Assembly (NCBI RefSeq): GCF_907164905.1
Contig: NZ_CAJRAF010000002.1
Location: 2,108,001-2,172,000 of the forward strand
DNA length: 64,000 nt
From: Dyadobacter sp. CECT 9275
GTDB lineage: Bacteria; Bacteroidota; Bacteroidia; Cytophagales; Spirosomataceae
Reading direction: 5' to 3'
The translations under genes and the position numbers were made by a program. Below the pieces are notes generated by a model. The model made no database searches. It had not been told where the DNA came from and worked only from the letters and a program-made list of their open reading frames with translations. Of the stretch, positions 47,377 through 62,963 are shown piece after piece (the first letter of the stretch is position 1; every line of letters starts with the position of its first letter).

Positions 47377-47410
47377 ATATCGCTTCAGCCAGTAATGCCC
47401 GAAGCGATAT
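47377..47410 (-). promoter_or_regulatory. Inverted repeat in the leader of the oxidoreductase operon
   Basis: A perfect 10-bp repeat ATATCGCTTC / GAAGCGATAT with a 14-nt spacer lies 42-75 nt before the ATG at 47335. A weak -7-like TATCTTTA (47421-47428) precedes it, so it could be an operator or a leader stem-loop. Confidence 0.4.
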
Positions 47411-47554
47411 TACGAAGCAATAAAGATAAAAAAATATATTGGATGTTTTTTCAGAAATAACAAAAAATACATGTGGTGTGCTCGTTACCGCATGCATTTT
47501 TGCAAGTGAAAGTGGGTTTTATCCCTTTTTTATACTTCCAGTATCTGTTGCAAA

Positions 47555-49081
47555 TCAGTCCCATTCTACTTCTATCACGTATTCCCTGAGATCTATCGTC
47601 GTGAATTTTTCTCCGTTCTGACGTTTCAGTGACACCTTCCCGTTCTGCACTTTGGCAACCTGCTGAGAAATAACATCCTTGGAACTCTTCTTACGGTAAA
47701 TGGCAACCAGTTGCTCTTCACTGGTAACGTCCACATCAAAATTCCGGCCTTTGGCTGTTACCAGTTTCGAATTACTCGGCAGATAGGGAGCCCGTGCGAG
47801 AGCAAGGGCCCGGGAAGCCAGCGGTACGCCATAGCCCACGAAGTTATTCCCGTAAGGATACAGGTGTGCCGACTTTTCTATAAGTCCTATCAGCTCTTTA
47901 TTCGTCAGTTTGGGGTTAACCTGTAACAGACAGGCGGCAAACCCCGTAATAACAGGGGCCGACAAGGAAGTACCGTACAAAGAAAAACAGGAGACATTGG
48001 GCTTTACATAAGGCAGGAACTCCGGCCCGATGCTGCTGTATCCTATCCTGTTCCATAATTTTCCATTGGTTGCACCAATAGAAAGTACACCTTTGGCGTC
48101 AGCCGGAGCAGATACAATACCCCAGCTTTTATCGTCGCCTTCATTACCTGCCGAGACAATAAGTGTGATACCTTTTCTGTCTGAAGCGATCTGTGCAGCC
48201 TTTGAAATTGCGCTCGTTTTTCCATCCATCTGGGAAGGCACATAATTTTCACTCGGGTCGGAAAAGCCCTTGGCATAACCCAGCGAAGTATTGATCAAAC
48301 GGACGCCAAGACTATCCATCCACTCCATTGCTGCGATCCAGTTATCTTCTTCTCCGCGATATTCCCGCATGGAATAATCCGTACGGGCCAGATAAAATTT
48401 AGCGTTTGTAGCAACGCCATACTGCATTTGGTCTTTGTAATCTATCCCCGAAATAGCGGCCAGTACCTCCGTCCCGTGCATGTCGGAAAACGATTCAGCA
48501 GTACTGAAAAGCAAATCCCCAGGGCGACCTCTTTTCACATAGTCTCTGATCCCGAGTATCCTGTTATTACTAAAAATATGATGAAGAGAAAAAGACGAAT
48601 CAGCACCGTAAAAGCCTGCGTCAATTACTCCAATGGTCACGCCCTTGGCTGTGATATCATTTTTCAGGAAAGCTTCGGCCTGCACCTGCGACATTACCGG
48701 GGCCATCTGTGCTTTTTCAACCGGACGCGTTTGTGCAATGTAAAAACCCGGATCAATGGGAACGATATGGCTCACAAAATCAAGCTGCTGCAGACGCTCC
48801 GCCTGCTCTCCGCTCAGGTTTGCCGAAACAGCATTCAGCCATTTGGAACGATTGATGATATTGACATGATTTTGTTTCAGTACTGCTTCGTATGCAGCGC
48901 TCACCGGCAGGTCCGTATCGTCGTAAGGAAGAAGTCCCAGCTTCTGACGATTTTCCAAGGTCAAAGAAGATACTGCGGGCGCCGATTTCAAATCCTTGTT
49001 TTTCAGATAAATCCAGTATTTGGGATGTGCTGATAAAAACAGCGGAATAAAAAAGAATAGCAGCAGAAATAGTCTTTTCAT
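47555..49081 (-). CDS. Subtilisin-like (S8) serine protease
   Basis: A 508-residue exported protease with signal peptide (MKRLFLLLFFFIPLFLSA). After a prodomain-like region the catalytic triad is complete: Asp154 in TIGVIDAGF, His202 in SDMHGTEV and Ser372 in YGTSLSAPV. VSAGNEGDD is the oxyanion Asn region. About 90 C-terminal residues form a beta domain, without an obvious type IX secretion tail. It probably degrades proteins in the periplasm or at the surface. A single gene. Confidence 0.93.
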   Translation of the reverse strand: MKRLFLLLFFFIPLFLSAHPKYWIYLKNKDLKSAPAVSSLTLENRQKLGLLPYDDTDLPVSAAYEAVLKQNHVNIINRSKWLNAVSANLSGEQAERLQQLDFVSHIVPIDPGFYIAQTRPVEKAQMAPVMSQVQAEAFLKNDITAKGVTIGVIDAGFYGADSSFSLHHIFSNNRILGIRDYVKRGRPGDLLFSTAESFSDMHGTEVLAAISGIDYKDQMQYGVATNAKFYLARTDYSMREYRGEEDNWIAAMEWMDSLGVRLINTSLGYAKGFSDPSENYVPSQMDGKTSAISKAAQIASDRKGITLIVSAGNEGDDKSWGIVSAPADAKGVLSIGATNGKLWNRIGYSSIGPEFLPYVKPNVSCFSLYGTSLSAPVITGFAACLLQVNPKLTNKELIGLIEKSAHLYPYGNNFVGYGVPLASRALALARAPYLPSNSKLVTAKGRNFDVDVTSEEQLVAIYRKKSSKDVISQQVAKVQNGKVSLKRQNGEKFTTIDLREYVIEVEWD

Positions 49082-49207
49082 GAATAACCGGTCAGTTAGG
49101 GATTATGGTATAGATAGCTTGCTGATGGATTCACTCTAAATGACAGTGCCCGCCGGGCAGTACACTATTCTTTTGTTACATTCATCATCAATTATGCAAG
49201 ATAAACG

Positions 49208-49215
49208 TAATTTTG
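49208..49215 (+). promoter_or_regulatory. -7 element before the aminopeptidase P gene
   Basis: TAATTTTG, an exact TAnnTTTG match. The TTG at 49213 that would extend the reading frame is part of this box, which supports the ATG at 49249. Confidence 0.5.
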
Positions 49216-49248
49216 CAGATTAAATTACAGTTACAAAATTTTCCGGTT

Positions 49249-50538
49249 ATGCGTTATTCCCCTATTGACCCATCGCTTTTCATTGGAAACCGCCGGCGCC
49301 TTGCCGAACTTCTCAAGCCGAAATCCATGGTGGTACTGAATGCCAATGATATACTGCCCACCAATGCAGACGGCACGCTGGCTTTCAAACAAAATACCGA
49401 TCTGTTCTATCTTACAGGGGTTGACCAGGAAGAAACCATACTGGTGCTTTCGCCGCAACATCCCGACGAAAAACTGCGCGAGGTACTTTTTGTGCGGGAA
49501 ACCAATGAAACCATCGCCATTTGGGAGGGAGAAAAACTCAGTAAGAAACAGGCCCGGGAAGTAACCGGAATTGAGACGGTTTTCTGGACACATCAATTCG
49601 AAAATGTTTTCAGGAATATCGTTTTTGAAGCTGAAACAGTATATCTCAACACCAACGAACATACCCGTAACGACTCACTCACCCAAACCAGGGAGGCACG
49701 GTTTGTCAGAGATTTCAAAGAAAAATATCCGCTGCATCGGCTGGACCGGCTCGCTCCGCTCATGCATTCCCTGCGGGCCATTAAGCAGCCTTTGGAAGTA
49801 ATACTTATGCAGAAAGCCTGTGATATTACTAAACTAGGCTTCGACAGACTGCTGAAATTTGTAAAACCGGGAGTGCAGGAATATGAGATTGAGGCAGAGC
49901 TGCTGCACGAATTTATCCGGAACCGGTCAAAAGGCTTTGCCTATCAGCCAATCATCGCTTCGGGTGCGAATGCCTGCGTACTTCATTACATTCAGAATGA
50001 CAAGCCCTGTCGGGATGGCGATATCCTTTTGCTGGACGTAGCAGCAGAATATGCCAATTACAATTCGGACCTTACCCGTAGTATACCGGTAAACGGCCGT
50101 TTCACAAAAAGGCAGCGCGATGTTTACGATGCTGTCCTGAATGTTTTCAAAGCGGCGAAAGGAATGCTGGTAACCGGCAATCTGTGGGACGAATACCACA
50201 GGGAAGTTGGGAAAATAATGGAAAGTGAGTTGCTTGGCCTGGGCCTCATCAGCAAAACGGACATTGAAAAGCAGGATCCGGAATGGCCCGCTTATCGCAA
50301 GTATTTTCCTCACGGTACCTCTCATTTTTTAGGATTGGACGTCCACGATGTGGGCAATAAGTACAGGCGTTTTGAGCCAGGAATGGTATTTACCTGTGAA
50401 CCGGGAATTTATATCCGGGAGGAAGGACTGGGAATAAGACTGGAAAATAATATTCTGATCACGCAGGAAGGCAATATTGACCTGATGGGGCACATCCCCA
50501 TTGAAGCGGAGGAAATTGAGGAAATCATGAACAGTTAA
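49249..50538 (+). CDS. Xaa-Pro aminopeptidase (M24B)
   Basis: A 429-residue aminopeptidase P. The creatinase-like N-terminal domain (FIGNRRRLAELLKPKSMVVL) is followed by the pita-bread fold. Metal ligands are seen in LLLDVAAEYANYNSDLTRS (two Asp), GTSHFLGLDVHDVG (His), CEPGIYIREEG (Glu) and LGIRLENNILIT (Glu). It removes the N-terminal residue before proline and is cytoplasmic. Start chosen at ATG 49249 because the longer frame begins inside the promoter box. Confidence 0.93.
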   Translation: MRYSPIDPSLFIGNRRRLAELLKPKSMVVLNANDILPTNADGTLAFKQNTDLFYLTGVDQEETILVLSPQHPDEKLREVLFVRETNETIAIWEGEKLSKKQAREVTGIETVFWTHQFENVFRNIVFEAETVYLNTNEHTRNDSLTQTREARFVRDFKEKYPLHRLDRLAPLMHSLRAIKQPLEVILMQKACDITKLGFDRLLKFVKPGVQEYEIEAELLHEFIRNRSKGFAYQPIIASGANACVLHYIQNDKPCRDGDILLLDVAAEYANYNSDLTRSIPVNGRFTKRQRDVYDAVLNVFKAAKGMLVTGNLWDEYHREVGKIMESELLGLGLISKTDIEKQDPEWPAYRKYFPHGTSHFLGLDVHDVGNKYRRFEPGMVFTCEPGIYIREEGLGIRLENNILITQEGNIDLMGHIPIEAEEIEEIMNS

Positions 50539-50609
50539 TATGCATTCTTCGGATTTTTAGCTAATTCGGTTAACGATTATTTTAGGACCCAATAACACAC
50601 TTGTATAAA

Positions 50610-50996
50610 ATGAAAAGTATAACAGAAGCAAAACGGTATCTTGATAAAGCAAAAGAAATCCTTACGGAAAAAGCATTAAAAGAGGATGGATACTACCAGG
50701 ACTCCAAATATGTAAAGATGGCTGGCCATACTGCGTACGCCGGAGTTCTGCTTGCACTGGATGCTTTTCTAGGCAAAAAGAGTAAAGGACGTAAAGATGT
50801 GGACTGGTACATACAGCATCTTGCCAAAACAGATAAGAAAATCCTTAACGCCTTCCTGACCGCCTATCAGGTACTCCATCTCGACATGGCCTACGACGGA
50901 GCAAAAAGCGCGAAACTCGCTGCAACAGGATTAGAGGAAGCGGAAAAGATCATCGACTGGCTCCAAAAGCGAAGCGTAGTAACAGCGGGATCATAA
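50610..50996 (+). CDS. DUF5618 family protein
   Basis: A 128-residue helical cytoplasmic protein resembling DUF5618: ITEAKRYLDKAKEILTEKAL, AGHTAYAGVLLALDAFLGKK, and DKKILNAFLTAYQVLHLDMA. Its shape resembles HEPN/helical-bundle proteins, but no catalytic motif is visible. Common in Bacteroidota; function unknown. Start at ATG 50610; a TTG 9 nt upstream also opens the frame. Lies 13 nt before the MgtC-like gene. Confidence 0.75.
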   Translation: MKSITEAKRYLDKAKEILTEKALKEDGYYQDSKYVKMAGHTAYAGVLLALDAFLGKKSKGRKDVDWYIQHLAKTDKKILNAFLTAYQVLHLDMAYDGAKSAKLAATGLEEAEKIIDWLQKRSVVTAGS

Positions 50997-51009
50997 ACCT
51001 ATTGATTAC

Positions 51010-51639
51010 ATGAATTTTTTACCTGACGACGTCTATAAATTGCTACTGTCCTTTTTCCTGGGCATGATCATCGGCTTGGAAAGGGAATACCGCAGCAAGT
51101 CGGCGGGGCTGAGAACCATGATCCTCATTGCCGTAGGATCAACACTTTTTACCATTATCTCCATCAAGATAAGTTCTGACGCGGGACGGATAGCGGCCAA
51201 CATCGTAACAGGTATCGGGTTCATAGGTGCAGGAATTATTTTCAGAGAAAATAGCCGGGTCGTTGGCATCACGACTGCTGCCATTGTGTGGGTAACCGCA
51301 GCACTGGGTATGGGAATAGGGGCTGGATTTTATGTACTTTCCATTGCCTGTTTTGTGATATCAGGTATGTCTCTGGTGATCCTGTCTCCGGTACAAAACT
51401 GGGTACGAAAACAAAGTCAGATCAGAAATTACCGACTGATGTGCATTTATGAGAAAAAGACGTTAAAAAAATATGAAGAACAGTTCAGAGAATATGACCT
51501 TAAAATCCTGAGAGCCGAACAAAACCGGTCGGGAAGCCATATAACCGGGACCTGGATCCTGCAGGGAACCGAAAAAGCACACGAGGAGTTAACCAAACGG
51601 TTACTTAACGATTCAGAGATTCTGGAATTTGATTTTTAA
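51010..51639 (+). CDS. MgtC/SapB-family membrane protein
   Basis: A 209-residue protein with four N-terminal membrane helices and a C-terminal cytoplasmic domain. The MgtC signature is clear: GMIIGLEREYRSKSAGLRTM, VGSTLFTIIS, NIVTGIGFIGAGIIFRE, and TTAAIVWVTAALGMGIGAG. The C-terminal part resembles an ACT-like domain. MgtC proteins help survival at low magnesium by affecting ATP synthase in some pathogens; the role here is unknown. It follows DUF5618 by 13 nt. Confidence 0.9.
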   Translation: MNFLPDDVYKLLLSFFLGMIIGLEREYRSKSAGLRTMILIAVGSTLFTIISIKISSDAGRIAANIVTGIGFIGAGIIFRENSRVVGITTAAIVWVTAALGMGIGAGFYVLSIACFVISGMSLVILSPVQNWVRKQSQIRNYRLMCIYEKKTLKKYEEQFREYDLKILRAEQNRSGSHITGTWILQGTEKAHEELTKRLLNDSEILEFDF

Positions 51640-51822
51640 CCTTTGAATCAATTCAATGAAAACTGTCCGAACGGCAACTTCATTTGCCTGTAATGCGTTA
51701 TAAATTTGTTGCAAAATGCTTTTGAAATAAACAATGCGCAGAATCAGTATTTTGTATAACCCATTACAAGTTTATTTACAAAAGGGAAATATCACTTTTG
51801 TAAATTAAAAGTAAAACCCACT

Positions 51823-52689
51823 ATGTCTAGTACTATTCCGAAGCTGCTATGGGAGCTTATTGAAAAAAATACAACACCGCAGGAAGCGGACTGGCTGAAA
51901 GAAAAGGGGTCCGCCGGAGCCATGGAACTAATGACCGCCTTTGTTGCCGCACCACGGTTTCTAGCCAAAAAATCAATTTATACGGACCTATCCGACCACT
52001 CGGAAATACCCGGATTCAGCGTGCACTGCTGGACGCTGGTGCGACTTGCACGTGTGTGGCTGCTGACCCAACTGGATGACTCGGATCAGAACGCATATAT
52101 CCACAACATAGAAACGCTCTTTGATACCGCTGAAATGAATGAACTGGTGGCCTTGTATTCAGCGCTGCCGGTACTATCTTTTCCAGAAAAATGGCTTTTC
52201 AGAGCAACAGATGCCGTACGCTCCAATATGGGACTGGTTTTCGATGCTATTGCGCTTCATAACCCCTACCCCGAGAAGTACTTTACTGAACTTGCATGGA
52301 ACCAGCTGGTACTCAAAACGATCTTCAATGACAAGCCTATCCACTACATCGTTGGATTAAAAAACAGGGAAAATCCTGCGCTGGCCTATACGCTGTCGGA
52401 CTTTGCTCATGAACGCTGGGCAGCGGGACGATCCGTTGCACCAGAAGTATGGAGGTTGGTAAGCAGCTATATGAACGAAGACCTGGTATCCGATATGCGC
52501 CGACTGTTTCAGTCGGATCAACCGTCCAATCAGAAAGCCGCTGCACTGGCATGCCATGAATCCGGATATGTTTCTGCTTTGCATCTGCTGGCAGAATACC
52601 CCGAATTTGAACAATTAATAGCGTCCGGAGAATTAACCTGGGCCAATCTAGAAATCACTGACCTGAATACCTATGTGCCTCAACCATAA
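51823..52689 (+). CDS. eboA: EboA-like protein, first gene of the ebo cluster
   Basis: A 288-residue cytoplasmic helical protein with no enzyme motif. Position and sequence (LWELIEKNTTPQEADWLKEK, GFSVHCWTLVRLARVWLLTQ, FRATDAVRSNMGLVFDAIAL, YNQ-like AWNQLVLKTIFNDKP) fit EboA domain proteins, which look like HEAT-type helical repeats and open ebo operons. Its role is unknown; it may be a scaffold. The TatD-like gene start overlaps its last 17 nt. A -7-like box CACTTTTG (51792-51799, one mismatch) lies upstream. Confidence 0.85.
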   Translation: MSSTIPKLLWELIEKNTTPQEADWLKEKGSAGAMELMTAFVAAPRFLAKKSIYTDLSDHSEIPGFSVHCWTLVRLARVWLLTQLDDSDQNAYIHNIETLFDTAEMNELVALYSALPVLSFPEKWLFRATDAVRSNMGLVFDAIALHNPYPEKYFTELAWNQLVLKTIFNDKPIHYIVGLKNRENPALAYTLSDFAHERWAAGRSVAPEVWRLVSSYMNEDLVSDMRRLFQSDQPSNQKAAALACHESGYVSALHLLAEYPEFEQLIASGELTWANLEITDLNTYVPQP

Positions 52690-53707
52690 CGAAAACTCCC
52701 CAAACCCATCGCATTTTGAGGAAAGTGAAGAAATTGCAACTGTAGAAAACCCTGATCACCGCGACATCGCCTGGAATGATTACCGCGATCTGATCAAAGG
52801 AATGCGTTTTTTTGATCCGCATATTCACATGGTTTCCCGCACAACCGACGATTATCAGGCAATGCACCAGGCAGGTATAGTAGCACTGATAGAACCTGCT
52901 TTCTGGGTTGGACAACCCCGGACAGGCCTGTCCAGTTTCAAGGACTATTACAGTAGCCTTGTGGGCTGGGAAAGGTTCCGTTCTTCACAATTCGGTATCA
53001 AACATTATTGCACCATGGGTTTAAATTCCCGTGAAGCAAACAATGAGCCGCTGGCAGAGCAGGTAATGGAAATTTTGCCGCTGTACATTTATAAAGAAGG
53101 TGTGGTAGGCGTAGGTGAAATTGGCTTCGACGACCAGACCGCTGCCGAAGAAAAATACTATCGCCTTCAGCTGGAACTCGCAAAAAAAGCCAATCTTCCG
53201 GTGCAGATCCATACACCTCACCGCGACAAAAAGAAAGGGACTGAACGGAGCATGGCCATAGCGCTGGAACACGGCATTGACCCTTCCTGGGTGATTGTGG
53301 ACCACAATAATGAAGAAACGGTCAAAAGCGTGCTTGACAAAGGCTTTTGGGCTGCTTTTACAATTTATCCATTTACCAAAATGGGGAATGAAAGAATGGT
53401 AAAAGTGGTTGAAGCCTATGGCCCGGAAAGGATTATGGTTAACTCCGCGGCAGACTGGGGCATTTCCGATCCCCTGGCGATCCCTAAAACGGCTGCGTTA
53501 ATGAAAATGAGAGGTATCCCGGAGGAGGCCATTAAAATGGTAACTTTTCAGAATGCAATTGATGCTTTCGGAAAAAGCGGACAGATAGATGTAACGGATT
53601 TTGAATCGGGTGTGGCAAGTGACCCCGCCGACAAATTTCATGGAAATTCCATTTTACGTGGCGGACAGCAACTGAATCCCGCCAAAGATTCCCTCGTCAT
53701 TCAATAA
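52673..53707 (+). CDS. eboB: TatD-family metal-dependent hydrolase of the ebo cluster (EboB-type)
   Basis: A 344-residue TIM-barrel amidohydrolase. Metal ligands are visible in FFDPHIHM (HxH), GVGEIGFDD (Glu), VQIHTPH (His), VIVDHNNEE (His) and NSAADWG (Asp). The RTTDDYQAM and EPAFWVGQPRTG segments are particular to the ebo-type TatD proteins. The first 43 residues (to Met44 at 52802) are a poorly conserved acidic extension, so the true start may be 52802; the ATG at 52673 would overlap eboA by 17 nt and allow coupling. Substrate is unknown. Confidence 0.88.
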   Translation: MCLNHNENSPNPSHFEESEEIATVENPDHRDIAWNDYRDLIKGMRFFDPHIHMVSRTTDDYQAMHQAGIVALIEPAFWVGQPRTGLSSFKDYYSSLVGWERFRSSQFGIKHYCTMGLNSREANNEPLAEQVMEILPLYIYKEGVVGVGEIGFDDQTAAEEKYYRLQLELAKKANLPVQIHTPHRDKKKGTERSMAIALEHGIDPSWVIVDHNNEETVKSVLDKGFWAAFTIYPFTKMGNERMVKVVEAYGPERIMVNSAADWGISDPLAIPKTAALMKMRGIPEEAIKMVTFQNAIDAFGKSGQIDVTDFESGVASDPADKFHGNSILRGGQQLNPAKDSLVIQ

Positions 53708-53708
53708 C

Positions 53709-54578
53709 GTGAGCAGTATCAAACCCTATTTACAGCTGACCCGCCCGGCCAATCTCGTCACTGCTGTGGCAGATATCCTGGCGGGTCTGGCTATAGCACA
53801 GTTTACATTTTCCGACTTCTCTCCTGCCTGCCTGGTACTCGCTACCCTCGGTTTATATGGAGGAGGCGTGGTCATGAACGATGTTTTCGATGCCAAACTG
53901 GATGCAATAGAGCGGCCCGAACGTGCCATTCCCTCGGGAAAGGTATCCTTGCAAGCTGCCACGTTCCTGGGTATTACCCTTTTGTTTGCAGGAGTATTGT
54001 TTGCCGCACTTTTTAGTTTTGAAAGCGGCGTCATTGCCATGATCATCGCCGTGCTTACCGTTGTATACAACCGTTTTGCCAAGCATCATGTATTTTTCGG
54101 TCCGTTGGTCATGGGCATGTGCCGGGGCGGAAACCTGATACTGGGAATGAGCGTTTTCCCCGAATCCGTTCAGCAATATGGCTGGATTGCCCTCGTACCG
54201 ATTGCCTACATCGGTGCCATCACACTTATCAGCCAGGATGAGGTACATGGAGGGAAAAAACGTACGCTTTACATTGCCGCGCTTTTGTACTTCGCCGTGC
54301 TTTCGGTACAGATTACCGTGGCGTCGGACAAAGGGAATCTGGTTCCCGCTCTGCCTTTTATACTCCTGCATACCTGGCTGATTGGCCGGCCACTGTGGAA
54401 TGCCATTCAGAACCCTGTTGGCCCTTTGATTGGGAAAGCGGTAAAGGCCGGAGTGATATCGCTTATCGTCATGAACGCCTCCTGGTGCATGGCATTTGGG
54501 CTGTGGCCGGTTGCCCTGGCTGTACTGGCATTACTGCCGCTGTCAATACTTCTGGCCAAAGTATTTGCCGTAACTTAG
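53709..54578 (+). CDS. eboC: UbiA-family prenyltransferase of the ebo cluster (EboC)
   Basis: A 289-residue membrane protein with about eight helices. The first aspartate motif is intact: NDVFDAKLDAIERPERAIPS. In place of the second motif the sequence reads LISQDEVHGGKKRTLYIA, with one Asp and one Glu instead of the usual DxxxD. This looks like a family feature and may alter the acceptor. It would attach a prenyl group to a small molecule in the membrane. GTG start, 1 nt after the eboB stop, so tightly coupled. Confidence 0.88.
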   Translation: MSSIKPYLQLTRPANLVTAVADILAGLAIAQFTFSDFSPACLVLATLGLYGGGVVMNDVFDAKLDAIERPERAIPSGKVSLQAATFLGITLLFAGVLFAALFSFESGVIAMIIAVLTVVYNRFAKHHVFFGPLVMGMCRGGNLILGMSVFPESVQQYGWIALVPIAYIGAITLISQDEVHGGKKRTLYIAALLYFAVLSVQITVASDKGNLVPALPFILLHTWLIGRPLWNAIQNPVGPLIGKAVKAGVISLIVMNASWCMAFGLWPVALAVLALLPLSILLAKVFAVT

Positions 54579-54677
54579 AACAAAAATAAAGTTACAACAC
54601 CAACTAATGGTTTTTCTCTAATTGGAAGTCAGTATTAAAATTGAATTAGAAATAGAGATAATCAGGCTAAGCTGACG

Positions 54678-54685
54678 TAAGTTTG
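54678..54685 (+). promoter_or_regulatory. Internal promoter box before eboD
   Basis: TAAGTTTG, an exact TAnnTTTG match in the 168-nt gap between eboC and eboD, 61 nt before the eboD ATG. No clear -33 element. It may give eboDEF independent transcription. Confidence 0.45.
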
Positions 54686-54746
54686 TCCTATAAATTCGTT
54701 TCTAAAACAGATAATACATTGTAATTGCTTTTTTTGCCGGACAGAG

Positions 54747-55925
54747 ATGCAGCCAATTAAACAAAAATTTCAGATAGAATATACATATTCGGTTTTTTTC
54801 ACCCGGAATCTGTTTGAAATATCCAATACCTCCCTGAAAGATTTTTTTCTTGATTATCAGGAGTTGGGGTTTCAGCGAAAAGCACTTATTGTTATAGATC
54901 AGGGTTTTTCCGCTTTTTACCCCCAGCTTGAAAAACAGATAAAGCTCTATTTCAAACAGGCTGTTCCTCATATTCAGCTCGCTCCGGAGATCATATATGT
55001 CCCGGGTGGCGAGGCCTCCAAAAATGACCCGGTGCTTTTTGATAAGCTGGCCGAAGCCGTGGACATCTATGGTATTGACAGGCATTCGTTTGTGATCGGG
55101 ATTGGCGGAGGCGCGGTTTTGGATCTGGTTGGTTACGCAGCGGCGGTATCTCATCGCGGCATCAAACTGATCAGGATTCCTACCACCGTTTTATCTCAGA
55201 ACGACTCGGGAGTTGGCGTTAAAAACGGTATCAATTTCCATGGCAAAAAGAATTTTCTCGGCACCTTTGCCCCTCCCGTAGCCGTTTTCAACGACCTTAC
55301 GCTGCTGAACAGTCTGGACGACCGTGACTGGCGTGCAGGAATTGCGGAGGCCATCAAAGTGGCACTGATAAAGGATGCCCGTTTTTTTGAATGGATTGAA
55401 CAAAATGTAGTTTCGCTCGCCAACCGGGACGAAACCAATATGGCATATCTCATCCACAGATGTGCCGAAATGCATACCGATCATATTGCCGGGGGCGATC
55501 CTTTTGAATTTGGCTCGTCCCGTCCTTTGGATTTTGGGCACTGGGCTGCACATAAGCTGGAATTCCTTACCAATTTCGAGGTTCGGCACGGAGAAGCGGT
55601 TGCCATAGGCATCGCCCTCGACTGCATCTATGCCAGGAGAATAGGGATGCTTGCTGAAAATGACCTGAACCGGATTCTGGACGTTTTAACCGCACTGGGA
55701 TTTGACCTGTACCATCCGAAACTTTCTGAAAACGATAAAATCAACCTGCGTAATGGTATTCAGGAATTCAGGGAACATCTGGGCGGGCGGCTCACCATTA
55801 TGCTTCTGGAAGAAATAGGGAAAGGAGTGGAAGTGCATGAACTGGATGCTGATTTGATCTCGCTGTCGGTAGATGACCTTGAAAACGTTCAGCTGCACAG
55901 TGCAGGAGCGAAGGTTTCTCAATAA
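54747..55925 (+). CDS. eboD: EboD sugar-phosphate cyclase (dehydroquinate-synthase-like)
   Basis: A 392-residue member of the 3-dehydroquinate synthase superfamily. NAD-binding segment GIGGGAVLDLVGYAAAVSHRGI; active-site segments RIPTTVLSQNDSGVGVKNGINF and KKNFLGTFAPP; zinc ligands in AEAIKVALIKD (Glu), DFGHWAAHKLE (His) and RHGEAVAIGI (His). It differs from true AroB (around QNDSGVGVKNG) in the way EboD proteins do. These form their own sugar-phosphate cyclase clade whose product is not settled. It would cyclise a C7-type sugar phosphate to a cyclitol. Confidence 0.9.
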   Translation: MQPIKQKFQIEYTYSVFFTRNLFEISNTSLKDFFLDYQELGFQRKALIVIDQGFSAFYPQLEKQIKLYFKQAVPHIQLAPEIIYVPGGEASKNDPVLFDKLAEAVDIYGIDRHSFVIGIGGGAVLDLVGYAAAVSHRGIKLIRIPTTVLSQNDSGVGVKNGINFHGKKNFLGTFAPPVAVFNDLTLLNSLDDRDWRAGIAEAIKVALIKDARFFEWIEQNVVSLANRDETNMAYLIHRCAEMHTDHIAGGDPFEFGSSRPLDFGHWAAHKLEFLTNFEVRHGEAVAIGIALDCIYARRIGMLAENDLNRILDVLTALGFDLYHPKLSENDKINLRNGIQEFREHLGGRLTIMLLEEIGKGVEVHELDADLISLSVDDLENVQLHSAGAKVSQ

Positions 55926-55930
55926 TTCAG

Positions 55931-55938
55931 TAATTTTG
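55931..55938 (+). promoter_or_regulatory. Possible internal promoter box before eboE
   Basis: TAATTTTG, an exact TAnnTTTG match just after the eboD stop and 34 nt before the ATG at 55973. It may be chance in an AT-rich gap. Confidence 0.3.
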
Positions 55939-55972
55939 GTCATCCAGACCTGTGCCAAATCCGACCCAGTTA

Positions 55973-57172
55973 ATGAATACTATCTACGGACATCTTACCT
56001 ATTGCAGCAATATCCACCCAGGCGAAAAATGGGAAGACCATTTTAGAGCCCTTCGCGAAAATCTGCCCTATATCAAATCCAGACTGGCCCCTGACCAGCC
56101 TTTCGGACTGGGCCTAAGAATAGCGAACGAAGCCTCCCTGGCGTTAAGTAAGCCGGAAAATCTGGCCGAATTCAAAACCTGGCTGGATCAGCAAGGCATC
56201 TATGTGTTTGTAATCAATGGATTCCCGTTCGGCGGCTTTCATAATACGGTGGTGAAAGATCATGTTCACACACCGGATTGGACTACGGCAGACAGAAAAG
56301 ATTATACCATCAGGTTATTCCGGATTCTGAGCCAGCTTCTTCCCGAGGGGATGGAAGGTGGCGTTTCCACCCCGCCATTATCCTACCGGTTATGGTGGAA
56401 AAACGCTGATGAAAGATTTCATGCCTCTCAAAAAGCAACGGAAAATATTCTTTTTGTTTTGGACGAGGTACTAGCTATAAAGGAACAAACCGGCAAAACG
56501 CTGCATCTTGATATTGAACCTGAACCGGATGGTATTCTGGATAACACCGCTGATTTTGTAAACTGGTACAAAAATGAACTGCTGCCAGCCGGGTCTGCTT
56601 ACCTGGTATCAAAATATGATTTCAGTGAAGCCAAAGCCAGAGAAACGATTCGGGAGCACATTCGCCTGTGTTACGACATCTGTCATGCCGCAGTAGGTTT
56701 TGAAAAGCCTGAGGATATTTTAGCCAGTCTGGCGGAAGCAGGCATTAAGGTGGGCAGAATACAGGTAAGCTCTGCATTGAAAGTAGACTTCTCGTCGCAG
56801 CCAGAGGCGAAATTAGAGGCAATTGCTGCATTTGATGAACCTGTCTATCTTCATCAGGTGGTTGCCAGAACTTCAGGAAATAATTTTGCCCATTTTGGCG
56901 ACTTACCCCAAGCACTGGATCAGTACAGCGGGGACCATCAAGAATGGCGGGTTCATTTTCACGTGCCGTTATTTATAGCATCCTACGGCCTGCTGGACTC
57001 CACCCAGGCCGATATTGTAAGAACGCTGGCACTCCACAAAAACGCCCCGTTCACAAATTACCTGGAGGTAGAAACTTATACGTGGGGGGTACTTCCCGCA
57101 GACATGCAAAAACCCATAGGCGATTCCATCGTACGCGAACTGGAATGGGTAAAAGAAATACTGACCCGCTAA
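55973..57172 (+). CDS. eboE: EboE, xylose-isomerase-like TIM-barrel protein
   Basis: A 399-residue TIM-barrel protein of the sugar phosphate isomerase/xylose isomerase-like superfamily. Metal-type segments include LDIEPEPDGIL (Glu), CYDICHAAVGFE (Asp/His) and RIQVSSALKVDF. The opening GHLTYCSNIHPGEKWEDHF is characteristic of the metabolite-traffic protein EboE. It may isomerise or epimerise the cyclitol or sugar handled by EboD. The ATG at 55973 is preferred over a GTG at 55952. Confidence 0.9.
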   Translation: MNTIYGHLTYCSNIHPGEKWEDHFRALRENLPYIKSRLAPDQPFGLGLRIANEASLALSKPENLAEFKTWLDQQGIYVFVINGFPFGGFHNTVVKDHVHTPDWTTADRKDYTIRLFRILSQLLPEGMEGGVSTPPLSYRLWWKNADERFHASQKATENILFVLDEVLAIKEQTGKTLHLDIEPEPDGILDNTADFVNWYKNELLPAGSAYLVSKYDFSEAKARETIREHIRLCYDICHAAVGFEKPEDILASLAEAGIKVGRIQVSSALKVDFSSQPEAKLEAIAAFDEPVYLHQVVARTSGNNFAHFGDLPQALDQYSGDHQEWRVHFHVPLFIASYGLLDSTQADIVRTLALHKNAPFTNYLEVETYTWGVLPADMQKPIGDSIVRELEWVKEILTR

Positions 57173-57202
57173 GCAATAAAAGTACCGGCAGAACCTGAAA
57201 TT

Positions 57203-58567
57203 ATGAATAAAACTGTTGTCATAGATATCGTTGGCCTGAGTGCCAATCTGATCGGGGAACATACACCGTTTCTGAAAAAATACTTACAGGAGAGGTACCT
57301 CACACCCATCAGGCCGGTATTGCCCGCAGTCACCACCACATCGCAAAGTACTTATGTTACCGGCAGGTGGCCCCAATCTCATGGTATTGTAGCAAACGGC
57401 TGGTACGACCGGGTGGATTCCGAAGTGAAGTTCTGGAAACAGTCGAACAAACTGGTAGGCGGTGAGAAAATTTGGGATGCCGCAAAAAAAGCGGATCCTT
57501 CATTTACCTGTTCCAAGATGTTCTGGTGGTACAATATGTATTCAACCGCAGACTTTTCAGTAACGCCCCGGCCGCAATATCATGCAGACGGCGTAAAAGC
57601 CCCGGATTGCTATGCCCATCCGGCAGCGCTGCGCGACCAGCTTCAAAAAGAATTGGGGCAGTTCCCGTTGTTCAGTTTCTGGGGACCCAATGCAAATATT
57701 AAATCGACTAAATGGATTGCGGATGCTTCAATGTGGGTGGATAACCAGCATAATCCTACGCTGACGCTGATTTACCTCCCGCATCTTGATTACTGCCTCC
57801 AGAAGTTTGGCCCTGATTTTAGCAAGATCAGTAAGGAGTTAGGAGAGATAGACAAAATCGTGGAGGAACTGGTTATTTTTTATGAAGCCAAACAGGCAAA
57901 AATCATCCTTCTGTCTGAATATGGCATCAATCCTGTCAACAACCCGATCCACATCAACAGAATCCTCAGGAATGAAGGGCTGATATCCGTCAGAACAGAA
58001 CGCTGGTACGAACTGCTTGACCCTGGAGCTTCAAAAGCCTTTGCAGCTTCCGACCACCAGATTGCACATATCTATCTGAATGACCCGAGTGTGAAAGAGC
58101 AGGTTATTCGTATTTTGAAGCAGACTCCAGGTATTGATCTGGTTTTGGATCGGGAAGAACAAAAGGAATATCATCTTGATCACGAACGCTCGGGAGATAT
58201 CGTAGCCGTTGCGGATGCCGCCAGCTGGTTTACTTATTATTACTGGCTTGAAGACGCCAAGGCACCAGACTATGCACATTTGGTGGACATTCACAGGAAA
58301 CCGGGTTATGACCCCGTTGAAATGTTTATGGATCCTAAAAACCCATTGATCAAATTACGGGCAGGCTACAAACTCGCACGCAAACTACTGGGATTCAGAT
58401 ACCTCATGGATGTAATACCTCTTGACGCTACCCTGATAAAAGGATCACATGGCGGAATAAATATGGGAAAAGAGTACTATCCAATCTGCATTACCAACAC
58501 GCCTCTAGATAAAAATGAGATTGAAGCGATTGATGTATATGATGTAATCTGGAAACATTTGATGTGA
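57203..58567 (+). CDS. eboF: EboF, alkaline phosphatase superfamily (nucleotide pyrophosphatase-like)
   Basis: A 454-residue metal-dependent phosphohydrolase/phosphodiesterase. The first Asp is in VVIDIVGLS, and the Thr nucleophile region reads PAVTTTSQSTYVTGRWP. LPHLDYCLQKFGP gives the Asp/His pair. The usual SDHG appears as LSEYGI, a variant seen in ebo-type proteins. The last His is in KGSHGGINMG. No signal peptide, so it is cytoplasmic. It probably removes a phosphate or nucleotide from the pathway intermediate. Last gene of the cluster, 30 nt after eboE. Confidence 0.9.
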   Translation: MNKTVVIDIVGLSANLIGEHTPFLKKYLQERYLTPIRPVLPAVTTTSQSTYVTGRWPQSHGIVANGWYDRVDSEVKFWKQSNKLVGGEKIWDAAKKADPSFTCSKMFWWYNMYSTADFSVTPRPQYHADGVKAPDCYAHPAALRDQLQKELGQFPLFSFWGPNANIKSTKWIADASMWVDNQHNPTLTLIYLPHLDYCLQKFGPDFSKISKELGEIDKIVEELVIFYEAKQAKIILLSEYGINPVNNPIHINRILRNEGLISVRTERWYELLDPGASKAFAASDHQIAHIYLNDPSVKEQVIRILKQTPGIDLVLDREEQKEYHLDHERSGDIVAVADAASWFTYYYWLEDAKAPDYAHLVDIHRKPGYDPVEMFMDPKNPLIKLRAGYKLARKLLGFRYLMDVIPLDATLIKGSHGGINMGKEYYPICITNTPLDKNEIEAIDVYDVIWKHLM

Positions 58568-58632
58568 TTTTTGCGATTAGCAAATCGCGAATTAACCGGA
58601 AGGAATTCCGAAGAATGTGACTGTCACTCCTT

Positions 58633-59115
58633 TCAGAATTTTCCCCACATCGCTGCCACAGCATAACCTATCATCACCAGGCAAAGCAGGACTTTCATCG
58701 CGATTCCTGTTACAAAACCAACAAAGGAACCCAAAGCCGACTTAAAGGCATCTTTCGCACCAAAGCCTCCTAATAATTCACCAATCAGGGCGCCTGCAAA
58801 AGTACCTGCGAAGATCCCTATGCCAGGCAGGATAAAGAAGCCGACTAATAATCCTATCGTTGCTCCAACTGCACCATACCTGGTCCCTCCAAATTTTTTT
58901 GTTCCCCAGATAGGTATGTAATAATCAAGTACTGCTATAACAGCCGTAAAGATACCCAGCGTGATCAATACCGGCTTGCTGAATTCCGCAAATTTGCTGA
59001 TGTGCAAAAGAATAAGTCCTGCATAACTAAGCGGAGGACCGGGCAATGGCAACACAGCGCCCGCCAAACCAACGAGCAGACAAACGATACCTGCTAAAAG
59101 AAGAAGAATATCCAT
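58633..59115 (-). CDS. DUF456 family membrane protein
   Basis: A 160-residue protein with about four membrane helices and glycine-rich segments: LVGLAGAVLPLPGPPLSYAG, and the repeated GxxxG-type helices FFILPGIGIFAGTFAGALIG. This pattern is typical of DUF456 (YqgC-like) proteins, whose function is unknown. Glycine zippers suggest membrane oligomers. Convergent with eboF and divergent from the carboxynorspermidine dehydrogenase gene. Confidence 0.88.
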   Translation of the reverse strand: MDILLLLAGIVCLLVGLAGAVLPLPGPPLSYAGLILLHISKFAEFSKPVLITLGIFTAVIAVLDYYIPIWGTKKFGGTRYGAVGATIGLLVGFFILPGIGIFAGTFAGALIGELLGGFGAKDAFKSALGSFVGFVTGIAMKVLLCLVMIGYAVAAMWGKF

Positions 59116-59165
59116 TTCGGCATGACAAATTAATGATGAATTAACAAAAAAACAGTGGGTCGTCC

Positions 59166-59173
59166 TATCTTTG
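59166..59173 (+). promoter_or_regulatory. -7 element before the carboxynorspermidine dehydrogenase gene
   Basis: TATCTTTG, an exact TAnnTTTG match about 80 nt before the ATG at 59253. Confidence 0.45.
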
Positions 59174-59252
59174 CCGGAAATATCAAAACCAAGGTATAGT
59201 TGTTGTATATATTATCCCTTCGTGCGGTTGTTCCATTATTCAAATTCATAAA

Positions 59253-60470
59253 ATGTCAAAAGTTCTTATTATCGGTGCCGGGGGTGTTGGCAGTGTTGTT
59301 GCCCATAAATGTGCAATGAACAGTCAGGTTTTTTCTGAAATTATGCTGGCCAGCCGTACCAAGGCCAAGTGTGATAAAATAGCTGCCGAAATCCAGGAAA
59401 TGCACGGAGTTACGATCCAGACTGCACAGGTTGACGCTGATATTGTGGCAGAAACGGTACTTCTGATCAAAAAATTTCAACCAAAGATGCTGATCAACGT
59501 AGCACTTCCCTACCAGGATCTTACGTTGATGGAGGCTTGTCTCGCCACTGGTATACATTACCTGGATACTGCCAATTACGAACCGAAGGACGTTGCCAAA
59601 TTTGAATACAGCTGGCAATGGGCCTATCAGGAGCGCTTCCGTGAAGCAGGCCTGATGGCACTTCTGGGCTGCGGTTTTGATCCGGGCGTTACCCAGGTTT
59701 ACACGGCCTATGCCAACAAGCACCATTTTGACGAAATGCATTACCTTGATATCATTGATTGCAACGCAGGAGATCATGGTAAAGCATTTGCGACCAATTT
59801 TAATCCTGAGATCAATATCCGGGAAATTACACAGCCGGGACGTTACTGGGAAAATGGTGAGTGGGTAGAAATAGAAGCGATGTCCATCCATAAACCGATA
59901 GATTACCCGGGAATCGGGCCCAAAGAAAGTTACGTGTTGTACCACGAAGAACTGGAATCACTGGTCAAAAATTTCCCGACGCTTAAACGTGCCAGGTTCT
60001 GGATGACTTTCGGCCAGCAGTATATTACGCACCTGAATGTCCTTGAAAATGTGGGGATGACGAGTATCAAACCCATTAAATTTCAGGGAATGGATATTGT
60101 ACCCCTGGAATTCCTTAAAGCGGTGTTACCTGCGCCCGATTCCCTTGGCGAAAACTACTCTGGCCAAACTTCCATTGGCTGCCAGATAAAAGGTATCCAG
60201 GACGGCCAGGAAAAGACTTATTATGTCTGGAACAACTGTGACCATGCCGAATGTTACCGAGAGGTACGTGCCCAGGCAGTGAGTTATACCACAGGTGTAC
60301 CTGCCATGATCGGTGCTATGCTGATGCTTACCAACGAAGAATGGCTGAAACCAGGTGTGTGGAACTGTGAAGAACTTAATCCGGATCCGTTTATGGATCT
60401 GCTCAACCAGCATGGATTGCCCTGGAATGAAAAAGTGAATGTGGAATTACCGCATGAATACCCAGCCTGA
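59253..60470 (+). CDS. Carboxynorspermidine dehydrogenase (saccharopine dehydrogenase family)
   Basis: A 405-residue saccharopine-dehydrogenase-family enzyme. The Rossmann loop reads KVLIIGAGGVGSVVAHKCAM, followed by LASRTKAKCDKIAAEI. Segments such as LGCGFDPGVTQVYTAYA, IIDCNAGDHGKAFATNFNPE and TTGVPAMIGAMLM match carboxynorspermidine/carboxyspermidine dehydrogenase rather than lysine-pathway enzymes. It condenses aspartate semialdehyde with a diamine (diaminopropane or putrescine) using NADPH to make carboxy(nor)spermidine. Its partner decarboxylase (nspC) is not in the window. A terminator overlaps the start of the downstream miaA end. Confidence 0.9.
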   Translation: MSKVLIIGAGGVGSVVAHKCAMNSQVFSEIMLASRTKAKCDKIAAEIQEMHGVTIQTAQVDADIVAETVLLIKKFQPKMLINVALPYQDLTLMEACLATGIHYLDTANYEPKDVAKFEYSWQWAYQERFREAGLMALLGCGFDPGVTQVYTAYANKHHFDEMHYLDIIDCNAGDHGKAFATNFNPEINIREITQPGRYWENGEWVEIEAMSIHKPIDYPGIGPKESYVLYHEELESLVKNFPTLKRARFWMTFGQQYITHLNVLENVGMTSIKPIKFQGMDIVPLEFLKAVLPAPDSLGENYSGQTSIGCQIKGIQDGQEKTYYVWNNCDHAECYREVRAQAVSYTTGVPAMIGAMLMLTNEEWLKPGVWNCEELNPDPFMDLLNQHGLPWNEKVNVELPHEYPA

Positions 60471-60482
60471 TTTTTGTAAAAG

Positions 60483-60528
60483 AACAAAGGAGATCCCAGG
60501 ATTCAGGTCCGGTTTCCCTTTGTTTTTT
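60483..60528 (+). terminator. Probable terminator between convergent genes
   Basis: 8-bp stem AACAAAGG (60483-60490) / CCTTTGTT (60517-60524) followed by T residues. The 26-nt loop is long. The right arm lies within the miaA 3' end. Confidence 0.5.
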
Positions 60529-61429
60529 CCAGGATATAATCCAGAATACCCTCAAAGTTGTCAGGATGAAACCATTGAAAAATAGCCTGATGCCGGAACC
60601 AGGTCAGTTGTCGCTTGGCATATCTTCTTGAATTTTGCTTTAAAAGTCTTACCATTTCCGGCTCGTTATACTGCCCATCCAAAAAACCGTAAACTTCCTT
60701 GTAACCAACAGTCTGCAAAGCATGATGCGCCCTGTACGCGATCAAATCCCTTGCTTCCTGCACCAGGCCGTTTTCGAGCATTAAGTCCATCCGTTCATCA
60801 ATCCGGCTGTATAATTCCTGCCTGTCCCGGTCCAGTCCTATCATAATGGGCTGAAAAGGGCGTTCCTTTTTCATTTTTTGCTGAAATCTTGAGATAGGTA
60901 TACCGCTGGTCATAAATACTTCCAGCGCCCTGACCACCCGCTGAGGATTCTGCCATTCACGGGTACCGGCAAAGTCGGGGTCTGCCCTGGCAATCTCAGC
61001 TTGTAGGGTTGTCAATCCTTCCTTTTCAAGCCTTTCAGTTAGTGATTCCCGCAGGCCCGGGAGCGGTGCGGGTAGGTCGTCTAGCCCTTCCAAAACAGCC
61101 TTCACGTAAAACCCGGATCCACCAGCCATGATTACATAGTTGCTTTTCCTGAATAATTCCTCCAGCAGCTGCAGCGCATCTCTTTCAAAATCTCCTGCGC
61201 TATAGGATTCTGCAATGGAATGGGAATTGATAAAATAATGGGGTACCAAGGCTAGCTCTTCCTCCGAAGGCTTGGCAGTGCCAACGTTCAACTCTTTAAA
61301 AAACTGCCTGGAATCCGCTGAAATAATTTCTGCTTTCAGGGCCATGGCGATCCTGATAGCCAGAGAGGTTTTCCCAACCGCCGTGGGACCGGCAATAATA
61401 ATCAGGTATTTATTCGAAGTGTTTGGCAT
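60503..61429 (-). CDS. miaA: tRNA dimethylallyltransferase
   Basis: A 308-residue enzyme with the P-loop IIAGPTAVGKTSLAIRIA, the conserved EIISADSRQFFKELNVGTAK segment, VPHYFINS, and MAGGSGFYVKAVLEGL. It transfers a dimethylallyl group to N6 of A37 in tRNAs reading UNN codons. The C-terminal KQNSRRYAKRQLTWFRHQ binds tRNA. It is cytoplasmic. Divergent from the DUF4230 gene; the promoter box at 61461-61468 fits this start. Confidence 0.95.
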   Translation of the reverse strand: MPNTSNKYLIIIAGPTAVGKTSLAIRIAMALKAEIISADSRQFFKELNVGTAKPSEEELALVPHYFINSHSIAESYSAGDFERDALQLLEELFRKSNYVIMAGGSGFYVKAVLEGLDDLPAPLPGLRESLTERLEKEGLTTLQAEIARADPDFAGTREWQNPQRVVRALEVFMTSGIPISRFQQKMKKERPFQPIMIGLDRDRQELYSRIDERMDLMLENGLVQEARDLIAYRAHHALQTVGYKEVYGFLDGQYNEPEMVRLLKQNSRRYAKRQLTWFRHQAIFQWFHPDNFEGILDYILEKTKGNRT

Positions 61430-61460
61430 TCTGGTGTTTTTATTTCAACTTTATTCATTA

Positions 61461-61468
61461 CAAAAGTA
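61461..61468 (-). promoter_or_regulatory. -7 element of the miaA promoter
   Basis: Minus strand TACTTTTG, an exact TAnnTTTG match 31 nt before the miaA ATG at 61429. Confidence 0.45.
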
Positions 61469-61473
61469 AGATC

Positions 61474-62145
61474 ATGAACGCCAGCACACTACTATTCTTC
61501 CTAATTTCTCTTACGCTGGGTACTGGTATAGGTGCCGTGGCCTACAAGTGGTTTTTTGTAAAAAAGTCAAACGAAGAAACATCCAAAACCGAATCCACAG
61601 TACTCCTTGAAAGTATCGAAAAGGTATTCAAGGTGGTAATGGCAGAAGGGTATTTCACCGAAATATACAATTATGAGAACCACAGGAATTTCTGGAACCT
61701 GATAAGCGACAAGAAAAAAGCGCTTATCATTGCCAAAGCCAAAGTACTTGTGGGGTACGACTTCGGCAAAATGCGCTTTCATTTTTCTCATTCCGACCGA
61801 AAAATGATCATTGAATATTTCCCGGAGCCAGAGGTATTGTCCATGGATACGGATTATAAATTTTATGACATAGAACAAGGCTGGCTGAACCGTTTTCAGA
61901 CAGACGACTACACTGCCATTCTAAATGAAGCAAAAAAGACGATGAACGAAAAAGCTCTTCAGAGCGACCTCCCCAGAATTGCCTCTAATCAGGTACAGTT
62001 GATGATGTTTCAGCTTGCCGCAACCATGAGCTGGAAAATAGATCTTCTATTACCCGAAATCAACAAAAAACAACTTGATGAATTTTCAAAATATCGTCCC
62101 ACGGATGCGAATATCGATTCGCTTAAAATTGATGACAATCCCTAA
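61474..62145 (+). CDS. DUF4230 domain protein, membrane-anchored
   Basis: A 223-residue protein with one N-terminal membrane helix (LLFFLISLTLGTGIGAVAYKWFF) and a soluble domain resembling DUF4230: VLLESIEKVFKVVMAEGYFTE, KKKALIIAKAKVLVGYDFGKM, and YFPEPEVLSMDTDYKFYDIEQGW. The domain is common in envelope proteins; function unknown. The topology places most of it in the periplasm. Start at ATG 61474; the frame is open further but into miaA. Confidence 0.8.
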   Translation: MNASTLLFFLISLTLGTGIGAVAYKWFFVKKSNEETSKTESTVLLESIEKVFKVVMAEGYFTEIYNYENHRNFWNLISDKKKALIIAKAKVLVGYDFGKMRFHFSHSDRKMIIEYFPEPEVLSMDTDYKFYDIEQGWLNRFQTDDYTAILNEAKKTMNEKALQSDLPRIASNQVQLMMFQLAATMSWKIDLLLPEINKKQLDEFSKYRPTDANIDSLKIDDNP

Positions 62146-62261
62146 TATTTAATTATTTTATAATGAAATAACTTTTCTGCTCATCATTTATCTCTTTCTT
62201 CGCGTAGATATGTTAAATTACAAAAGTCTTTACTACTTATTCATTCTTAAACTTTAGCGAT

Positions 62262-62900
62262 ATGTTGAAAAAACTATCTTTGATGCTCTTTCTTGGTATG
62301 GTATTACTCTTTGCAGGCTGTAAGGGAGATCAGGGCGATGTCGGTCCTCAGGGAGAAAAAGGAGACAAGGGAGATACTGGCGCACAAGGTCCAGCTGGTC
62401 CTGCCGGTCAGGACGGAGAGGACGGCACAGGGTCCGGATCACTTCCTTTGCTATTATCCGTTGGAAAAGATACCACCTATGCAGAAACAGGCGGGTATAT
62501 AGTGGCACTCGATGAACTTACTGACGAAGCACTTGCTCTTTTAGACAAGTCTGCAATCCTGGTTTATATTAAATCGCAGGGTGTGTATTGGCCGCTGCCC
62601 GGTTTGGTCGCTTTTGAAGAAGGTGTAAGCAATTTTACTTTTGTTCATGGTGTAGACGAAACGGACAAATACTTCTTCGTAGAGTTGCTGGCCGTCAACT
62701 GGTCAGAAGATCAGGAAACTGCACCTCGCAGGGTTTTTGAAGACCTCCGCATCATTATCATGCCGACCGAAGAACTTACCAGAAAACGCCAGGATATCAA
62801 TTACAAAGATTACAACGACGTAGTAAGCAAACTCGGCCTTACCGACAAAGATCTGAAAATTGTAAGCGGTAATAAACAACTCGCTTTTAAGAAAAAATAA
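62262..62900 (+). CDS. Lipoprotein with a short collagen-like repeat
   Basis: A 212-residue lipoprotein. The signal (MLKKLSLMLFLGMVLLFAGC) ends in lipobox FAGC with Cys20. At once follow about 12 Gly-x-y triplets (from GDQGDVGPQGEKGDKG through GPAGPAGQDGEDG), the collagen-like triple-helix pattern, then a globular C-terminal domain (residues 60-212) I do not recognise. The triplets may form a trimeric stalk that projects the domain from the membrane. A strong terminator follows. Confidence 0.85.
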   Translation: MLKKLSLMLFLGMVLLFAGCKGDQGDVGPQGEKGDKGDTGAQGPAGPAGQDGEDGTGSGSLPLLLSVGKDTTYAETGGYIVALDELTDEALALLDKSAILVYIKSQGVYWPLPGLVAFEEGVSNFTFVHGVDETDKYFFVELLAVNWSEDQETAPRRVFEDLRIIIMPTEELTRKRQDINYKDYNDVVSKLGLTDKDLKIVSGNKQLAFKKK

Positions 62901-62917
62901 CAAGCCGGATTGATATA

Positions 62918-62950
62918 AAAAAAGCGGAGCCGAAAACTCCGCTTTTTTTA
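62918..62950. terminator. Bidirectional terminator between the collagen-like lipoprotein and ychF
   Basis: 13-bp perfect stem with GCGGAG/CTCCGC core, seven A before and seven T after (62918-62930, 62938-62950); works on both strands for the two convergent genes. Confidence 0.9.
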
Positions 62951-62963
62951 TATGCCTGGATTC

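Follow-up and report, generated by a model that had tools for sequence, protein, structure and literature searches.

A complete ebo operon in Dyadobacter sp. CECT 9275 and what its relatives suggest about a possible prenylated cyclitol product

The ebo operon was named in 2016; scytonemin export in Nostoc depends on its genes, and they are also present in a worm-repelling Pseudomonas cluster. Here we describe such an operon from Dyadobacter sp. CECT 9275 (Bacteroidota), the genome of which comprises 7.2 Mb in four contigs and is listed as 100% complete. The window analysed is a stretch of 64,000 nucleotides (NCBI RefSeq assembly GCF_907164905.1, contig NZ_CAJRAF010000002.1, positions 2,108,001 to 2,172,000), and positions are counted from its first letter. 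Open reading frame positions and family matches place six consecutive ebo genes, in the order A-B-C-D-E-F, on the plus strand at 51823-58567 (Table 1). The ebo operon of the window is complete, as an earlier note made from the sequence alone had claimed, and six family matches in the published ebo order are in our judgement far beyond chance.

Table 1. Genes and intergenic gap of the ebo operon in the window, with the best family support (cut-offs in brackets)
Feature	Position	Strand	Description	Support
eboA	51823-52689	+	EboA-domain protein, 288 residues	NCBIfam NF035938, 179.9 bits (50)
eboB	52673-53707	+	TatD/amidohydrolase-like, 344 residues, likely metal ligands intact	Pfam PF01026 (TatD_DNase), 57.6 bits (27)
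eboC	53709-54578	+	UbiA-superfamily membrane prenyltransferase, 289 residues, GTG start, NDxxDxxxD motif	NCBIfam NF035940, 405.3 bits (250)
eboC-eboD gap	54579-54746	+	168 bases
eboD	54747-55925	+	Sugar phosphate cyclase, EboD clade, 392 residues	NF004852/PRK06203, 576.4 bits (333); tree
eboE	55952-57172	+	Xylose-isomerase-like TIM barrel, 406 residues, GTG start	NCBIfam NF035939, 499.7 bits (250)
eboF	57203-58567	+	PF01663-superfamily protein, 454 residues, altered metal site	Pfam PF01663 (Phosphodiest), 215.5 bits (23)

Profile searches, proposed as a check in the earlier note, recovered models for the EboA domain, EboC, EboD and EboE. No model named EboB or EboF was matched by the window proteins in the NCBIfam and Pfam scans, and the support for these two genes comes from the TatD and PF01663 families instead. 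The narrower EboA family (NF035937) scored 212.3 bits, below its cut-off of 320, and the model matched by EboD carries the NCBI name 3-dehydroquinate synthase. The start of eboB overlaps the end of eboA by 17 bases. A promoter-like site was detected at 54635-54662, between eboC and eboD, and a second promoter in this gap is possible; promoter and terminator counts for the ebo region as a whole were no higher than in shuffled sequences. Rfam returned nothing at gathering thresholds across 44000-64000.

Related loci were retrieved by an EboE-based search of one species-level genome collection, in which at least 589 related stretches were confirmed and the best 80 kept; the 101 loci compared consist of sets of 80 and 21, with some genomes present in both and some loci cut by contig ends. 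The ABCDEF order was found in 88 of the 101, which bears out the earlier note in the cluster comparison across Bacteroidota that it had called for, and the window locus is ordinary for its group. The remaining 13 comprised seven DEF and three EF loci, and one each of ABCEF, ABCDE and DEF with a farther-off eboA on the opposite strand. Nine genomes whose sets are incomplete at the locus were searched for EboC (eboA and eboB were not searched), and in eight of them it scored over its cut-off, so that the checked DEF loci are split rather than lacking eboC. EboE itself exceeded its cut-off in 22 of 395 sampled genomes of the class, own genome included. The nearest relatives by EboE identity, among the best 80 of at least 589 stretches, belonged to Dyadobacter, followed by Telluribacter, Persicitalea and Runella, a ranking that may leave out some records very close to the own genome.

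Yurchenko et al. (2016; PMC5133447) named the operon; according to the main-text parts of their paper, Bacteroidetes and Cyanobacteria had ABCDEF as their ancestral order, EboD forms a clade of its own, new among the sugar phosphate cyclases, and the product was proposed to be an isoprenoid cyclitol. The ebo clusters of Bacteroidetes, Cyanobacteria and eustigmatophyte plastids described there share all six families and their order with the window and differ in nothing essential, and the locus is a further member of this already known kind. With both the gene order and the prenylated-cyclitol idea present in that paper, the hypothesis of the earlier note is not new. The EboF site changes, the VTT fusion and the cyclase swap described below were not found reported in the main-text parts of that paper, its supplements and part of one section aside.

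In Nostoc punctiforme, whose ebo cluster holds the same gene families as the window, each ebo deletion tested (eboD was not among them) has been reported to confine the scytonemin monomer to the cytoplasm, and a prenylated sugar-like carrier has been proposed (Klicki et al. 2018; PMC6282210, as far as seen). A need for ebo in the movement of metabolites to the periplasm is known from Nostoc only. Whereas the Nostoc genes serve scytonemin export, no scytonemin gene was recognised beside the Dyadobacter operon among the neighbours scanned with NCBIfam and Pfam (a search that did not extend to the rest of the genome), in agreement with the earlier note. A full ebo cluster is also contained, according to Klicki et al. 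(PMC6282210), in the EDB cluster of Pseudomonas fluorescens NZI7, which, unlike the window, is tied to indole products: a review reports such products upon expression of the Pseudomonas EDB cluster in E. coli (PMC9655573). The worm-repellent trait, for which the earlier note gave the small-molecule product as unresolved, is no longer wholly so.

The identity of the cyclase was addressed with a tree of 43 rows. Thirty-two EboD rows form a single clade (support 100/100), while the five AroB/DHQS rows form a clade of their own (98/93) apart from it; judged from this tree, EboD is not AroB, the outcome on which the earlier note had staked its assignment. EboD keeps E201, H265 and H281 at the zinc-ligand positions of DHQS. 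At R143, R259, D262 and H344 it carries the letters of EEVS chain 4p53 and of three annotated sedoheptulose 7-phosphate cyclases, unlike the DHQS rows (the R of column 259 also occurs in one ungrouped Streptomyces DHQS-family row). Four of the five discriminating columns examined thus match EEVS, with H269 as the exception (P in 4p53), whereas P260, W266 and E343 are EboD's own. Seven of these letters (R143, R259, P260, D262, W266, H269 and H344) are present in 106 of 106 EboD rows, and E343 in 105. These counts, and those given below for EboA, EboB and EboF, exclude rows that fall short of 75% of the length of the window protein; the second group of rows, labelled other phyla, is a loose one, as it includes Aureibacter (L148), a member of Bacteroidota, and two of the rows (L147 and L155) come from two plasmids of one strain. 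The active site of EboD is largely EEVS-like, in a protein that belongs to a clade separate from that of 4p53, identified as ValA (PMC4426668, as far as seen).

In some ebo clusters a different cyclase, inositol-phosphate synthase (MIPS), occupies the place of EboD. The cluster of Streptomyces sp. NBC_00028 consists of MIPS (by Pfam), an SCO3242-type prenyltransferase, a xylose-isomerase-like protein, EboA, TatD, EboE and EboF, and two further Streptomyces plasmids share this order from MIPS to EboF. These clusters have homologues of EboA, EboB, EboE and EboF in common with the window, but contain MIPS instead of EboD and a prenyltransferase of the SCO3242 family. Among the best 40 of 47 EboE-bearing plasmid records, MIPS was located within 10 kb in 22, EboD in 15, neither in three and both in none of the matches listed (the best 60 of 79 for MIPS and the best 60 of 115 for EboD), and six EboD-bearing records searched as a whole were without MIPS. 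Of the three records with neither cyclase, one has EboE alone; in the other two the stretch holds no ebo-type genes besides EboB-, EboE- and EboF-like ones. A related arrangement was found in the haloarchaeon Halobaculum (L184:3106-9656), where MIPS lies beside EboF-like, TatD, UbiA and two xylose-isomerase-like genes, with no EboA annotated. SCO3242 and SCO3243 (MIPS) have been listed together among the CDA-cluster genes of S. coelicolor (PMC3610822, in the part seen). A link between MIPS and ebo was not found among the papers listed in literature searches, and the word inositol is absent from the main text of PMC5133447. The presence of MIPS in the place of EboD makes a cyclitol core likelier, which strengthens that part of the earlier note's proposal. 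If MIPS can indeed replace EboD, the product class of ebo becomes testable by a simple swap.

Two further observations concern MIPS genes. One Streptomyces plasmid cluster with MIPS for EboD (L145:4365-11567) adjoins a gene annotated as ScyD/ScyE family. The sole ABCEF locus among the 101 (L044) belongs to a Bacteroidota genome (G361) whose best EboD-model score is 165.1 bits, against a cut-off of 333, and which encodes a MIPS followed 16 bases on by a xylose-isomerase-like gene (L178:6759-8844), the product of which is 41-46% identical to the xylose-isomerase-like proteins of four MIPS-type clusters. As a cyclase swap this pair is suggestive only: it lies on a different contig from the ebo genes, closer relatives of its MIPS occur in Roseomonas and Hymenobacter in a MIPS-Gfo/Idh-YcaO-sugar-isomerase set without annotated ebo genes, and MIPS is also present in 2 of 19 other EboE-bearing genomes.

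EboC has seven hydrophobic segments, and its closest solved chain by sequence is 6m31, a digeranylgeranylglyceryl phosphate (DGGGP) synthase; weak matches to PPR-design PDB entries were set aside, as no stretch passed alone. Homologues of EboC from Maribacter, Zobellia and Algoriphagus have been reported to farnesylate quinolines in vitro, namely 8-hydroxyquinoline-2-carboxylic acid and quinaldic acid (Amiri Moghaddam et al. 2022; PMC9235831, as far as seen). This activity is what one would expect if EboC prenylated a quinoline or hydroxybenzoate-like compound, with EboD feeding the aromatic ring through a dehydroquinate-like product. Activity of membrane fractions on aromatics, however, does not prove a natural substrate; EboD lies outside the AroB clade, while the genome's second PF01761 protein groups with AroB in the same tree (on a long branch), and the clusters with MIPS for EboD indicate a non-aromatic ring. 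We consider an aromatic acceptor of this kind unlikely.

For EboF the expectation was that of a zinc enzyme of the PF01663 family, the usual ligands of which are an Asp near the N-terminus, an Asp-x3-His and an Asp-His. EboF was aligned with solved family members (HMMER) and with seven paralogues, chosen from its own genome's 20 other matches to PF01663 (MAFFT). Its homology to the family is clear in sequence, but the usual set of ligands is not there: by these sequence alignments, V10, Q200, E239 and Y240 stand where the solved members and the seven paralogues carry D, H, D and H. None of the four varies across 111 of 111 EboF rows (Bacteroidota, Deinococcus, Alpha- and Betaproteobacteria, Streptomyces), and neither does the stretch D284-H285-Q286-x2-H289. 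T44 and D196 are kept as in the family, and H416 is invariant and may be the counterpart of the last His of the family. The haloarchaeal EboF-like relative keeps V10, E239 and Y240, with L in place of Q200. This invariance speaks for a changed site rather than decay, and suggests that EboF has lost the usual zinc site of PF01663 enzymes; experimenters should not assume a phosphatase, as the earlier note had done. A paper on a tardigrade ferritin-like phosphatase (PMC11616004) proved, as far as seen, to be unrelated to EboF.

The altered site also bears on the order of steps read from the genes in the earlier note, in which EboD cyclises, EboE isomerises, EboF dephosphorylates, EboC prenylates and EboB hydrolyses, with a prenylated cyclitol as the end product. 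The gene families fit such a linear pathway, and the same product class was proposed in PMC5133447; according to the main-text parts of that same paper, however, sugar phosphate cyclases themselves expel the phosphate, leaving the sequence from cyclisation through isomerisation to dephosphorylation at odds both with this chemistry and with the replaced letters of EboF. We regard the linear scheme as quite improbable.

The other ebo proteins retain conspicuous sites. EboA R77, K165, E197, R198 and R203 are present in 101 of 101 rows, and a profile search of EboA against PDB sequences gave no match up to E = 5. EboB keeps H50, H52, E149, H180, H211 and D261 in 103 of 103 rows, its likely metal ligands, going by the sites of TatD; its closest solved chain by sequence is AF_1765. 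The fold of EboE sits among ketose epimerases and xylose isomerases in the VIA fold search, as expected of a xylose-isomerase-like TIM barrel, and its profile found nothing credible among PDB sequences. Catalytic-type sites of EboB, EboC, EboD and EboE are retained in nearly every row. This last finding is awkward for the idea that the Ebo proteins form a membrane complex which moves metabolites directly, without making a small molecule of their own, and in which the enzyme-like folds serve above all to bind. Such a complex would account for the shared trapped-monomer phenotype of all tested Nostoc ebo deletions (eboD untested; PMC6282210, as far as seen), for the altered look of EboF as a hydrolase and for the invariant basic residues of EboA. 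That an unrelated cyclase can fill the EboD slot, in contrast, is sensible for a product but less so for a subunit, and we hold this idea to be very doubtful.

A possible connection with the membrane is provided by a fused protein. One of the two ebo plasmids of a Salipiger strain encodes, directly before eboE, a 633-residue EboD that carries a VTT (DedA-like) domain at its N-terminus (L147:7097-8998); the EboD on the second plasmid is without that length. A protein search with the Salipiger query, in which 8000 candidates were scored and 120 listed, yielded 45 matches, query included, with VTT and both EboD domains, and R143, D262 and H344 are present in all 45. Flippase roles, for undecaprenyl phosphate or putatively for phospholipids, have been described for VTT/DedA proteins (PMC10127716, in the part seen).

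We also noted a ferritin-like PF12902 gene and an adjoining gene of 587-662 residues beside ebo genes of Mycetohabitans, Aureibacter, Gloeothece (where the annotated ebo-type genes are just TatD- and EboD-type) and L034, a locus from the window's order. The pair was found in 3 of 116 loci searched, Gloeothece being a query. At L034:14164-17261 the ferritin-like gene, which matches PF12902-bearing queries, and a conserved 660-residue gene lie directly upstream of eboA. The pair is possibly VioB-like: matches to the VioB model were weak (16.2 and 28.9 bits, cut-off 1250), and neither the L034 pair nor the long gene of Mycetohabitans gave any (Gloeothece was not scanned). No PF12902 protein was found in the window's own genome.

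Taken together, the comparative leads favour a ring-polyol core and membrane handling of the product. We give about an even chance to the reading that the complete ebo operon makes a prenylated cyclitol at the inner membrane and perhaps moves it across. This reading draws on the family matches, the EboD clade with its EEVS letters, the MIPS swap (on plasmids and in the haloarchaeal cluster), the VTT-EboD fusions, the proximity of EboC to DGGGP synthase, the fold of EboE and the trapped monomer in Nostoc. The substrate of EboD would most likely be sedoheptulose 7-phosphate, or a closely similar ketose phosphate, and its cyclisation would yield an EEVS-type C7 keto-cyclitol. Rearrangement or trimming of this polyol would fall to EboE and probably EboB; EboC, on the cytoplasmic side of the inner membrane, would attach a prenyl chain, perhaps by an ether link as in DGGGP synthase. 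EboA and EboF may be phosphate- or polyol-binding partners, or may work by a chemistry that does not involve the usual zinc site. The prenyl-cyclitol would then cross the membrane and assist the passage of aromatic or indolic compounds to the periplasm, in genomes that make them.

Several points weigh against this reading. EboD and the five sedoheptulose-phosphate-cyclase rows join at only 91/89, where long branches meet, and H269 is DHQS-like, so that EboD, with its own P260, W266 and E343, differs from a plain EEVS. Among the matches listed, 21 of the 22 MIPS records are Streptomyces, many of them near-identical and not independent, the remaining one being Gemmatirosa, of another phylum. The VTT domain matches UptA weakly (32.8 bits, cut-off 250), an ebo context was seen for one VTT fusion only (L147), and the window has no VTT-EboD fusion. 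Single Nostoc ebo deletions gave no gene-specific intermediates (PMC6282210, as far as seen); the in-vitro farnesylation of quinolines, finally, implies that the acceptor may be aromatic.

A wider, clearly more tentative extension would see a cyclitol-lipid system spanning Bacteria and haloarchaea, with a ring made by EboD (C7) or MIPS (C6), prenylation by an enzyme of the EboC or SCO3242 type, and a VTT module, fused to EboD in some Alphaproteobacteria, that carries the lipid across the membrane. The lipid would act as a shared carrier for indolic and aromatic products (scytonemin, EDB and VioB-like clusters), and EboF would be a phosphodiesterase fold whose zinc site has been exchanged for a conserved new one.

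The surroundings of the operon were also inspected. Genes for aminopeptidase P, DUF5618, MgtC-like, DUF456 and saccharopine-dehydrogenase-like proteins flank it and recur mainly in Dyadobacter and Telluribacter loci. Recurrent neighbours were discarded as a functional clue, the most-shared flank clusters of the 101 loci being genus-bound (Dyadobacter, Chitinophaga) or of unidentified families; so were genes inserted in ebo operons, which by eye, without a family search, followed no common theme. The saccharopine-dehydrogenase-like gene (59253-60470), located downstream of ebo in several Dyadobacter loci, scores 404 bits with a carboxynorspermidine synthase model (cut-off 800). A minus-strand pair at 45101-47335, encoding a xylose-isomerase-like TIM barrel and a Gfo/Idh/MocA oxidoreductase with N-termini that look Tat-like by eye, belongs to superfamilies that match ebo accessory genes elsewhere, but lies 4.5 kb off on the opposite strand. 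Finally, the protein encoded at 62262-62900 contains a short collagen-like repeat (GPQGEKGDKGD) and scores 24.7 bits with the Pfam Collagen model, below the cut-off of 27.2.

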